Part shown: in pieces, positions 56,702 through 60,485 of the stretch | Layout of the letters: the number at the start of each line of letters is the position of its first letter | Numbering within the stretch: position 1 is the stretch's first letter | Source of the DNA: Ruania suaedae | GTDB taxonomy: Bacteria; Actinomycetota; Actinomycetes; Actinomycetales; Beutenbergiaceae | NCBI RefSeq assembly: GCF_021049265.1 | Contig: NZ_CP088018.1 | Coordinates: forward strand, 2,728,001-2,792,000 | DNA: 64,000 nucleotides | Reading direction: 5' to 3' | Position numbers and translations under genes: made by a program | Notes under the pieces: model-generated | Databases searched by the model: none | Told to the model about the DNA's origin: nothing | The model's input: the letters and a program-made list of their open reading frames with translations, nothing else

Positions 56702-58078
56702 CTAGTCGAGCCCGGTGGCCACCGGCCGTGCTTCGTCGGCCGACCACTGCGACCAGGACCCGGGGTACAGGCGGGCCTCGATGCCGACGGCGGCCAGCGC
56801 CGCCACCTCGTGTGCGGCGGTCACGCCCGATCCGCAGTACACCACCACGTCCTCGGCGTCCCGGGCACCGAGCGACTCGAACCGGCGGCGCAGCTCATCG
56901 CTGGTGCGGAACTGCTGGCGCTCGTCGAGGTTGTCGGCCGTGGGGGCGCTGACGGCGCCGGGGATGTGACCGGCGCGGGGGTCGACCGGTTCCACCTCAC
57001 CGGCGTAGCGCTCCTGCGCACGGGCGTCGAGCAGCACCCCGCGTGCGGGGGTGGCGGCGGCCTCGTCGGCGTCGGCGACCGGCATGTGATCGGGCGAGAG
57101 CGTGATCGTGCCCGGGGCCACCTGCACCTCCCCGTCCTCCATGATGCCGCCGTTCTCGCTCCAGGCGCGCAGGCCACCGTCGAGGATGCGCACATCCGGC
57201 ACGCCCGCCCAGCGCAGCAGCCACCAGGCCCGGGCTGCTGACATCCCACCGGAGTCGTCGTAGACCACGACCGGATCGCCGTCATCCAGACCCCACCGCT
57301 CGGCGGCGGCCTGCAGCGTCTCCAGGCTCGGCAGCGGGTGGCGTCCGTCATCGCTGCCGGCGGCGGACGCGAGATCGTGGTCGAGGTCGACGAACTGCGC
57401 GCCGGGCACGTGCCCGGCCAGGTAGAAGCGCCGCCCGTCCGGCTCGGCGAGCGACCACCGCACGTCCAGCACCGTCAACGGCACGCTGGAGGAGATCAGC
57501 TCGGCCAGCTCGTCGGCGGAGATCAGCACCCTGCGGCGCAACGGGTCTGCCTCGGTCATCGCTTGCGTCTCCTCGACTGGCTCGACGATCTCCGCGCCCA
57601 CGGGGCCGGGACTCCTGCTCGCTCTCAACCGTAACCGCATGACCACCGCGTCCGCCCCCTCGGGCTGGTAGTACCCGCGCCGCACGCCCAGCGCCTCGAA
57701 CCCGAACGAGACGTACAGCGCCTGCGCCCCGGCGTCGGTGGCACGCACCTCCAGCAGCACGCTCTCGGATCCGGCCGAGCGAGCCCGGCCGATCAGTTCG
57801 GCCAGCATCCGCCCGGCGTGCCCGCGGCGGCGGTGCGCCGGGTCGACGCCCACGGTCATCACCGAGGCGTCCACGCCGAGGGCGATGCCGGCGTACCCCA
57901 CCAGGTGCGAGCCGGTCACGGCCGCCACGTAGGCGCGATCCGGCAGCGCGAGCTCGTCCTCGTAGACCTCCCGGCTCCAGCTCGCCGGTCCGAACAGCAC
58001 CGGTTCGAGTGCCATCACGGCCGGCAGATCCGAGCGCAGCAGCGGCCGCAAGTCCGCCGAGCCTGCGGCCGCAGTCAC
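56702..58078 (-). CDS. rimI: RimI N-acetyltransferase fused in frame to a two-domain sulfurtransferase
   Basis: A single 458-residue open frame with no stop between two normally separate genes. Residues 1-150 are a GNAT acetyltransferase of RimI type (LRPLLRSDLPAVMALEPVLFG, VMTVGVDPAHRRRGHAGRMLAELI, LEVRATDAGAQALYVSFGFEALGVRRGYY). A linker of about 25 residues follows. Residues 174-458 are a thiosulfate/3-mercaptopyruvate sulfurtransferase with active-site Cys415 in VVYCGSGVTAAHEV. Met174 has a GAGGAGA, so a separate sulfurtransferase could also be made. A +1-frame stop TGA at 57627-57625 and a TTA codon at 57634-57632 lie where RimI usually ends, so a lost frame must be considered. The GTG start overlaps the tsaB stop by 4 nt. 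Confidence 0.85.
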   Translation of the reverse strand: MTAAAGSADLRPLLRSDLPAVMALEPVLFGPASWSREVYEDELALPDRAYVAAVTGSHLVGYAGIALGVDASVMTVGVDPAHRRRGHAGRMLAELIGRARSAGSESVLLEVRATDAGAQALYVSFGFEALGVRRGYYQPEGADAVVMRLRLRASRSPGPVGAEIVEPVEETQAMTEADPLRRRVLISADELAELISSSVPLTVLDVRWSLAEPDGRRFYLAGHVPGAQFVDLDHDLASAAGSDDGRHPLPSLETLQAAAERWGLDDGDPVVVYDDSGGMSAARAWWLLRWAGVPDVRILDGGLRAWSENGGIMEDGEVQVAPGTITLSPDHMPVADADEAAATPARGVLLDARAQERYAGEVEPVDPRAGHIPGAVSAPTADNLDERQQFRTSDELRRRFESLGARDAEDVVVYCGSGVTAAHEVAALAAVGIEARLYPGSWSQWSADEARPVATGLD

Positions 58079-58782
58079 CGGCCGGTGGGCTGTCCGGCGG
58101 CCACGTGCACGTCCGGCCGGCGCAGGTAGAGGGCGTCGGTGGGCTGGGCCACACCGGCCTCGGCGCGCTGCAGTGCCAGGCGCCCCAACCATGCAGGATC
58201 CACGACGGCGGCCCCCGCCCGCGCGGGGTCGCTCACCTGGGCGGCCAGCTCGTCCGGATACAAAGCCAGTCCCCGGCCCACCACGCTACCTGCGCGCACC
58301 AGGTCCTCATGGTCGGCGGCCACCTGCGCGGCTGCGGCGACGCCCGGCCCGGCCACGATGTGCACCCCCGCGGACTCCTCGCGCCGGTACCGGCCCCAGT
58401 ACACCTCGCGGCGGCGCGCATCGGTGGTCACGAGCACCTCCGCACCCCCGGCGGCGTCCTCCAGCGCCGCGGCCGCGATCGCGTCCAGGGAGCTGACACC
58501 ATGCACCGGCACCTCGCGCGCCTGGGCGAACAGGCGCGCCGTCACCAGTCCCACCCGCAGTCCGGTGAAGGGCGCGGGCCCGGTGCCCACGGCGATCGCA
58601 CTCACGTCGGAGGCCTCGAGACCACACGACTGCAGGCATCCCACGATCAGCGGGGTGAGGTTCTCCACGTGCCGGCGCGGGTCGTCGCTGCGGGCGGCAG
58701 CAAGAATGCGCCCCGCGCTCAGCACCGCCACCGCGGCCCCGTCAGAGGTGTCCAGGCACAGCAGGAGGGAGTTGGGGGTCAC
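58075..58782 (-). CDS. tsaB: tRNA threonylcarbamoyladenosine biosynthesis protein TsaB
   Basis: Pseudo-enzyme partner that bridges TsaD and TsaE. The 235-residue protein has the ASKHA start LLCLDTSDGAAVAVLS, VGTGPAPFTGLRVGLVTARLFA and VHGVSSLDAIAAAAL plus ARRREVYWGRYR. GTG 58782 lies 4 nt after the tsaE stop. It overlaps the RimI-fusion gene by 4 nt. Confidence 0.93.
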   Translation of the reverse strand: MTPNSLLLCLDTSDGAAVAVLSAGRILAAARSDDPRRHVENLTPLIVGCLQSCGLEASDVSAIAVGTGPAPFTGLRVGLVTARLFAQAREVPVHGVSSLDAIAAAALEDAAGGAEVLVTTDARRREVYWGRYRREESAGVHIVAGPGVAAAAQVAADHEDLVRAGSVVGRGLALYPDELAAQVSDPARAGAAVVDPAWLGRLALQRAEAGVAQPTDALYLRRPDVHVAAGQPTGR

Positions 58783-58786
58783 GTCC

Positions 58787-59344
58787 CTACCCTACGACCG
58801 CGCCCGGCAACTCGACCCCGTTCCAGCGGGCGCCGACCGGGCGCAGCACCACCCGCCGGGGCTGATCGGCGGCGGCGGCCTGCCCCAGCTCGACGCCCGC
58901 GCCCTCGACCCCGCGCGGACGCACCAGGTCGATTTCGAGCCGGTCCTGCGCGAGCCCTTCGACCAGCCCGGCGCCCCACTCGACCACGGTGACCGACTCG
59001 GCCATCGAGGAGTCCAGGTCGAGCGCGTCGACCTCGGCGATGGAGGCGAGCCGATAGGCGTCCACGTGGATCAGACCTGGCCCGTCCCCGGTGGGCGCGT
59101 GCTCGCGGGCGATGATGAAGGTCGGTGAGGCGACGCGCCCGCGCACGCCGAGACCCTCGCCGATCCCCTGGGTCAGGGTGGTCTTGCCCGCGCCGAGGTC
59201 GCCGGTGAGGATCACCAGGTCACCCGCGCGCAGCACCCGTGCCAGGCGACGGCCGAGCTCCCGGGTGGCGGCCGCATCGGTCAGCTGCCTCGCCGTGGCC
59301 CCCGCCTCGGCCTGCTTCCCGCTCGCCCGTGCGCTGCCCGTCAT
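58787..59344 (-). CDS. tsaE: tRNA threonylcarbamoyladenosine biosynthesis ATPase TsaE
   Basis: A 185-residue P-loop ATPase. Walker A is LTGDLGAGKTTLTQG (Lys54), followed by VRGRVASPTFIIAREH, IHVDAYRLASIAEVDALDL and VTVVEWGAGLVEGL. The C-terminal stretch after the core is longer than in E. coli. ATG 59344 follows AGGAGC and starts 4 nt after the alr stop. Confidence 0.95.
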   Translation of the reverse strand: MTGSARASGKQAEAGATARQLTDAAATRELGRRLARVLRAGDLVILTGDLGAGKTTLTQGIGEGLGVRGRVASPTFIIAREHAPTGDGPGLIHVDAYRLASIAEVDALDLDSSMAESVTVVEWGAGLVEGLAQDRLEIDLVRPRGVEGAGVELGQAAAADQPRRVVLRPVGARWNGVELPGAVVG

Positions 59345-59348
59345 CTGC

Positions 59349-60485
59349 TCATGCTCCTGTCCCTCGGTAGACCCGCGGCACCCGGGGCCCGATCTGCGTG
59401 ACGATCTCGTAGCTGATCCCCCCGACGGCGTCCGCCCAGTCCTGCGCGGTCGGCTCGCCCTGGGAGCCGCTACCGAACAGCACGGCCTTCTCGCCCGCGG
59501 CCACCGGCAGGTCACCCACGTCCAGCACGAACTGATCCATGCACACCCGCCCGGCGATACGCACCTGCCGTCCGGCGACCTGCACCGGTGCGGCGTTGCT
59601 CGCCCGCCGCGGGATGCCGTCGGCATAACCCAGCGGCACGGTGGCGAGGGTGGTCAGGGCGGAGGTGACGTAGGTGTGGCCGTAGGAGACGCCCTGCCCG
59701 GCCTCGGCCCCCTTGACCACGTGCAGATCCGCCTCCACCCGCATCGCCGGGGTGAGTCCGACCTGGGGCGAGGGGTGTGTCTGCGGCATCGGGGAGAGTC
59801 CGTAGACGGCGATCCCGGGCCGCACGAGGTCGTAGTGCGCCTGCGGCACCGCGATGGTGCCTGCCGAGTTCGCCAGATGGCGCACCTCCACCCGGGCACC
59901 GGCGGCCTCGGCACGCCGCACGGCCTCGTCGAAGACAGCGATCTGGTCGCTGACACCGGGCTGACCGTCCTCGTCGGCGCGGGCGAGGTGGGACCAGACG
60001 CCTACCAGCCGGACGAGACCCTCGGCCTCCAGCCGGAGCGACTCGTGCAGCATCTCGGTCCAGGTGTCCAGGAACGACCCGCCGCGGCCGAGCCCGGTGT
60101 CGACCTTGAGGTGCAGCCGGGCGGTGGTGCCGGTGACGCGGGCGGCCGCGGCGATCTCGGCGAGCGCCCAGGGCGCCGGGGCGGAGATGTCGATGCCGGC
60201 TCGCAGGACGTCGGCCAGCGGAGCACCGGGGCCGTACAGCCAGGTCAGCACCGGGGCCGTGATCCCGGCAGCGCGCAGCGCCAGGGCTTCGGGCAGCTGC
60301 GCGGCTCCGAGCCAGTCGGCGCCTCCGCGCAGCGCCGCGCGTGCCGCCGGCACCAGCCCGTGGCCATAGGCGTCACCCTTGACGACGGCCATCAGTTGCG
60401 CGGTCGGCGCACACTCGCGCAGCCGGCCGACGTTCGCCGCGATCGCGTCCAGGTCGACGACGGCGCGTCCCGGGTAGTAGGTCAC
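59349..60485 (-). CDS. alr: Alanine racemase
   Basis: PLP enzyme making D-alanine for peptidoglycan. The 378-residue protein has the PLP lysine Lys36 in LMAVVKGDAYGHG, RLHLKVDTGLGRGG, VWSHLARADE, RPGIAVYGLSP and the second-subunit base region GQGVSYGHTYV, as well as CMDQFVLDVG. GTG 60485 follows ACTGGAG; in-frame ATGs further upstream are less well placed. It lies between nnr and tsaE. Confidence 0.95.
   Translation of the reverse strand: MTYYPGRAVVDLDAIAANVGRLRECAPTAQLMAVVKGDAYGHGLVPAARAALRGGADWLGAAQLPEALALRAAGITAPVLTWLYGPGAPLADVLRAGIDISAPAPWALAEIAAAARVTGTTARLHLKVDTGLGRGGSFLDTWTEMLHESLRLEAEGLVRLVGVWSHLARADEDGQPGVSDQIAVFDEAVRRAEAAGARVEVRHLANSAGTIAVPQAHYDLVRPGIAVYGLSPMPQTHPSPQVGLTPAMRVEADLHVVKGAEAGQGVSYGHTYVTSALTTLATVPLGYADGIPRRASNAAPVQVAGRQVRIAGRVCMDQFVLDVGDLPVAAGEKAVLFGSGSQGEPTAQDWADAVGGISYEIVTQIGPRVPRVYRGTGA

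Follow-up and report, generated by a model that had tools for sequence, protein, structure and literature searches.

Fusions known within the t6A/rimI gene cluster include TsaB-RimI or RimI-TsaD polypeptides, in which neighbouring genes of one cluster are joined and the partner of RimI is a t6A enzyme. In the window, that is, the whole analysed stretch of 64,000 nucleotides from Ruania suaedae, neighbouring genes of such a cluster are joined as well, but the partner is a sulfurtransferase; tsaB and rimI are separate in 158 of 158 loci. With RimI proteins (TIGR01575; PDB 2cnm, 5isv, 9mto) the product has in common a whole GNAT domain, the equivalents of Glu103 and Tyr115, and the site of its gene between tsaB and tsaD. 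It differs from them in that no stop codon follows the domain and the protein runs on into the sulfurtransferase. With 3-mercaptopyruvate sulfurtransferases (1urh, 3olh, 4jgt; SseB of M. tuberculosis) it shares two rhodanese domains, the CGSGVT loop and the fold, but here this enzyme sits behind RimI in one polypeptide. No paper on a RimI-sulfurtransferase fusion was found in a limited literature search, and we know of no sulfurated target for this pair of enzymes.

The initial annotation had described rimI as lacking a stop codon and running in frame, within the tsa cluster, into a complete two-domain sulfurtransferase. Indeed, the frame is open over 458 aa (Table 1), and its GTG start codon at 58078 overlaps the stop codon of tsaB (GTGA). 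The genes tsaB and tsaD both match PF00814, the TsaD family, to which TsaB also belongs. Both domains of the fusion are detected by Pfam in 11 of 11 fused proteins of the family. Most likely, the 458 aa product is a bifunctional polypeptide, RimI and sulfurtransferase on a flexible tether; the open frame, its sharing among relatives and the key residues, all read from sequence, point to this. The product would consist of two separately folded enzymes joined by that tether.

Table 1. Positions in the window of the fused reading frame, its parts and the adjacent tsa genes.
Feature	Positions	Strand	Basis and remarks
Fused ORF, 458 aa, RimI and MST-type sulfurtransferase	56702..58078	-	GTG start at 58078, TAG end at 56702, no stop between
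RimI (GNAT) domain, residues 9-151	57626..58054	-	TIGR01575 match, alignment with 2cnm, pLDDT
RimI tail and linker, residues 152-185	57524..57625	-	Low pLDDT
Tail motif GPVGAE, residues 158-163	57590..57607	-	Pattern conserved in the family
Internal Shine-Dalgarno-like GAGGAG	57569..57574	-	Sequence, pairing energy
Internal in-frame ATG, codon 174; putative second product of 285 aa	57557..57559	-	Sequence, upstream Shine-Dalgarno box
Tandem rhodanese domains, MST type, residues 186-456	56711..57523	-	Two PF00581 stretches
Cys415 in CGSGVT	56834..56836	-	Alignment of fused and separate proteins
tsaB, upstream neighbour	58075..58782	-	PF00814, 92.6 bits; named by place and length
tsaD, downstream neighbour, provisional start codon	55598..56671	-	PF00814, 290.3 bits
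Longest ORF around tsaE, actual start probably internal	58787..59626	-	PF02367, 114.5 bits, residues 116-235

The N-terminal domain narrowly passes the rimI model TIGR01575 (89.3 bits against a cut-off of 86.4, residues 17-147) and misses the cut-off of another RimI model, PRK09491 (48.2 versus 173 bits). In an alignment with the RimI chain 2cnm, its Glu110 and Tyr122 fall opposite Glu103 and Tyr115, the catalytic residues of RimI, and all 15 fused and all 26 separate proteins aligned have the equivalents of both. The S18 gene of the same genome (L308 1477..1722, minus strand) encodes a protein beginning with MAKRDNR, that is, with alanine after the initiator methionine. The RimI part would acetylate this N-terminal alanine of ribosomal protein S18, and perhaps other N-termini.

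The best PDB sequence match of the rhodanese part is the 3-mercaptopyruvate sulfurtransferase 1urh (7.4e-39), and the top Foldseek match is 5wqj, a 3MST; sequence identity to 3MST and MST structures is 31-33%, and the fold is the same. There are two tandem rhodanese domains with the cysteine in the second, as in 3-mercaptopyruvate sulfurtransferases, and CGSGVT at residues 415-420 fits the CG(S/T)GVT motif of these enzymes. The active-site Cys415 named in the initial annotation is in place; in the alignment all 15 fused and all 25 separate proteins have this cysteine, and likewise the CGSGVT motif. The score with PRK11493, the NCBIfam model of 3-mercaptopyruvate sulfurtransferase, is below the cut-off (152.8 versus 250 bits), and thus we call the enzyme MST-like and do not file it as that equivalog. 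Among the M. tuberculosis sulfurtransferases compared in one study, SseB alone has the MST motif, according to that report (PMC6856128). Judging by its domains and motif, the partner of rimI is a 3-mercaptopyruvate-type sulfurtransferase, SseB-like by motif, and the rhodanese pair would move sulfane sulfur via Cys415. A search of the same genome (query P0001) found neither a further RimI nor a further CGSG-type enzyme. The sole other place matched, L002, encodes an SseA-like protein of the CRIGER type beside a SufE-family gene, and was rejected as a spare copy on these grounds.

In the predicted structure (mean pLDDT 91.7) both domains are mostly above 90, with block means of 90-98 over RimI residues 11-150, and their mutual orientation has no confident prediction (pTM 0.73). 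Between these two high-confidence domains pLDDT falls below 50 at residues 158-170 and 172-174, the GPVGAE stretch included; GPVGAE is conserved despite this predicted disorder. The model thus predicts a flexible linker between the domains. A linker of 25 residues had been proposed in the initial annotation. The linker exists, but it spans about 35 residues (151-185), the first of which still belong to the C-terminal tail of RimI itself. In raw counts over the ten pairs of the five fused congeners, codon differences in the tail and linker are mostly nonsynonymous (141 versus 43 synonymous), those in RimI number 324 nonsynonymous versus 424 synonymous, and those in the sulfurtransferase 518 versus 886. 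For the tail and linker, this is what a passive tether would show.

The pattern G[PAVL][VIL]G[AVS]E was found in the RimI tail in 21 of the 24 family genomes, fused and unfused alike, and at 1 of 105 loci of the sister family. In the unfused congeners RimI runs some 20 residues beyond the 57627 site and ends with G-P-V-G-[AS]-E-A-I-E-E followed by the stop codon. The three family genomes without the pattern are those in which rimI lies far from the sulfurtransferase gene, at 5.4-7 kb (G014, G018, G021); they form one clade and should be counted once. Two Georgenia RimIs (L060, L104) have similar tail endings. A TGA codon in the +1 frame at 57627-57625 had been taken to stand where RimI normally ends. 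The codon is present, but the conserved tail continues past it. Since the tail beyond 57627 also occurs in unfused relatives, RimI does not normally end at this site.

Within the genus, five of eight genomes have the fused frame (G000, G001, G003, G004, G006); in the family the count is 11 of 24, and four genomes of the sister family, which holds Cellulomonas, also have it (G184, G868, G873, G896). The four other fused congeners are 70-80% identical, and third-position G+C is 0.75-0.92 across the junction in the five. The six fused family genomes outside the genus represent four other genera (G011, G012, G015, G016, G019, G022). The two genes adjoin but are separate in ten family genomes (G002, G005, G007, G008, G009, G010, G013, G017, G020, G023). 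A stop codon between the genes in close relatives had been named beforehand as an argument for two ordinary genes; a TGA is indeed found there in the congeners G002, G005 and G007, and no such stop in the remaining five of the eight. Thus the fusion is a lineage trait and not universal.

For the sister family 221 genomes were searched. At E <= 1e-60, 193 of them gave a match and 28 gave none, and the loci read were the matches with an open frame of at least 430 aa; the smallest fused frame seen has 443 aa. Locus L281 (genome G905) was left out of the counts, as its frame stays open at the junction only because a run of N lies there. In this draft genome the run of N at the rimI-sulfurtransferase junction lies beside a G+C-rich repeat. 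In a phylum sample of 396 genomes, 16 had a match at E <= 1e-80, a threshold at which remoter fusions are missed, and only the match of the window spans both domains. In an order sample of 396 genomes, rimI stood beside the sulfurtransferase in 0 of 15 long-frame loci outside both families among the matches listed. A plasmid search gave no place covering 80% of the query.

It is extremely improbable that the frame results from a sequencing or assembly error, in which an incorrect base or a missing indel would have turned two ordinary genes into one. The same fused frame occurs in four other congeners and ten further genomes, and the +1-frame TGA, which together with the internal ATG and its Shine-Dalgarno box would speak for such an error, lies before the conserved RimI tail and not at the end of RimI; the stop codons in three genomes of the same genus also count on the side of an error. 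Since five of the eight genus genomes share the frame, the indel or frameshift caveat of the initial annotation is rejected for the genome of the window.

Over the loci read in both families there are 154 neighbouring pairs of rimI and the sulfurtransferase gene, 15 of them fused. Control pairs in the same loci, that of the window included, are never fused (tsaE-tsaB, 0 of 129; tsaB-rimI, 0 of 158), although these are imperfect controls whose spacing and frame offset differ from those of the rimI-sulfurtransferase pair. A quick tree of 130 genomes built from four genes needs five state changes, five being forced by starred branches, and an earlier tree of 54 rows needs four. Such counts cannot separate gain from loss: the states of G184 and G896 may go back to a gain plus a loss, and the placement of G896, a long row, is unsure. 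As the separate state is much commoner, the changes are taken as gains, and we read the fused state as having arisen four or five times. In these events, adjacent rimI and 3-mercaptopyruvate-type sulfurtransferase genes would have become one reading frame. A frame that recurs in 15 sequenced genomes suggests that the fusion is more than chance. On the other hand, where RimI tails are long and hold few stop codons, loss of a stop may be tolerated, and thus recurrence need not mean benefit.

The ATG at 57559 with its own Shine-Dalgarno box, pointed out in the initial annotation, is there, with an anti-Shine-Dalgarno pairing energy of -8.9 kcal/mol. All five fused congeners keep an in-frame ATG with a Shine-Dalgarno box near the old sulfurtransferase start (-8.9 to -13.8 kcal/mol), as does G016 (-10.3), and the likely sulfurtransferase starts of the separate congeners have values of -10.6 to -11.0. 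As a background, of the 52 ATGs that lie within domains in the 15 fused genes, 3 reach -8.9, and of 275 domain-internal GTGs, 51 are at -7.2 or below; the pairing energy disregards spacing. Since GTGs reach -7.2 by chance, weight was given to ATGs only. The sulfurtransferase probably once started at the ATG at 57559, and the fused congeners and G016 could make both the fusion and the free sulfurtransferase. In the genus of the window, the conserved internal ATG and Shine-Dalgarno box would thus probably give, from one mRNA, the fusion and the single enzyme.

The linkers of the Cellulomonas-like G868 and G873 contain no ATG, GTG or TTG, save a GTG right before LDVRW. With no usable internal start, the fusion is probably the sole form made there; in at least these two genomes no internal start would be left. 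In seven more genomes (G011, G012, G015, G019, G022, G184, G896) the linker has GTGs only, with pairing of -7.8 or weaker, and we lean towards the fusion as the only form in these as well.

These observations bear on a neutral read-through, in which the stop codon was lost, the sulfurtransferase is supplied via ATG 57559 and the fused form as such serves no function. This is possible, though on the unlikely side. It would account for the internal starts of the five fused congeners, so like the likely starts of the separate ones, and for the fast change of the tail and linker, but it fits poorly with G868 and G873 and with the seven genomes that have only weak linker GTGs. Moreover, all 15 fused proteins retain the key residues, RimI begun at its own codon is always the fusion, and the control pairs never fuse. 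For the bifunctional polypeptide, which we prefer, we infer that it would be expressed and would have both activities, that internal initiation would occur in addition, and that tethering would bring a benefit, such as fixed dosage or co-location near the S18/TsaD machinery.

The initial annotation regarded the sulfurtransferase as interrupting a usual order tsaE-tsaB-rimI-tsaD. This view did not hold: tsaE-tsaB-rimI-sulfurtransferase is the usual order both in the family and in the sister family, the sulfurtransferase gene following rimI in 21 of the 24 genomes of the family and, among the sister-family loci read, in most. Thus in the genome of the window there is no intrusion into the cluster. 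The tsaD gene comes directly next in 24 of 54 loci and lies further off in 30 (in three of the 30 the match is a spurious upstream one). It is set off in most other sister-family loci, but not in the genus of the window; at L179 and L129, the two loci looked at, an opposite-strand gene of the nitroreductase family (PF00881) lies between the sulfurtransferase gene and tsaD. In Pseudactinotalea terrae (L170 2943-8531) about 5.6 kb splits rimI from the sulfurtransferase gene; this stretch includes genes for a regulator of the PadR family and for a glycosyl hydrolase of family 38, alpha-mannosidase type.

A link of t6A or of S18 acetylation to sulfur transfer had also been suggested. From t6A, MtaB and TcdA lead to ms2t6A and ct6A. 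In the genome of the window the best match to TIGR01579 (MtaB-like), which we take to be MiaB, scores 314.6 bits, below the cut-off of 357.05 that 4 of 14 control genomes pass. For TcdA there is only a partial match of 53 bits against a cut-off of 304, passed by 1 of 14 controls. Neither route thus offers a link between t6A and sulfur; the suggestion was not borne out, and sulfur supply for ms2t6A or ct6A was rejected as unsupported.

A different possibility, by Rosetta-stone logic, is that the sulfurtransferase shares a target or complex of RimI (S18, TsaD, ribosome assembly), for instance by persulfidating a thiol, and that tethering helps. We consider this rather doubtful. The neighbourhood is common to two families and the fusion is repeated and specific to this pair, but the MtaB-like and TcdA cut-offs are not reached in the same genome, and at 66 of 80 named loci with a close sulfurtransferase no rimI was found within 400 bases (Frankia, Amycolatopsis and Rhodococcus among them). 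Also on the favourable side, a published report (PMC4926160) describes M. tuberculosis RimI as interacting with TsaD in a protein-fragment assay and as acetylating an N-terminal peptide of TsaD, though it did not acetylate folded TsaB-TsaD.

The functional link of RimI and the sulfurtransferase is a hypothesis with some comparative support from the sequences. As to the purpose of the tether, equal dosage would be the modest answer, and steering of sulfur transfer to the RimI/TsaD neighbourhood the bold one. In its strongest form, which seems to us quite unlikely, the two enzymes of Ruania- and Cellulomonas-like actinobacteria would truly function as a pair: the RimI domain or the GPVGAE tail would steer the sulfurtransferase to the neighbourhood of ribosome assembly and TsaD, sulfane sulfur would be delivered there, and the repeated fusion, whether or not a start that rescues the free enzyme is kept, would be the record of selection for the tether.

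For annotation, rimI and the sulfurtransferase gene should be treated as a single reading frame in the fused genomes. The presence of fused and unfused genomes within one genus provides a setting in which the effect of tethering could be measured. Finally, about five changes between the separate and the fused state in two related families, where neighbour pairs are never fused, hint, in a way that can be tested, that a sulfane-sulfur enzyme may cooperate with a ribosomal N-acetyltransferase.
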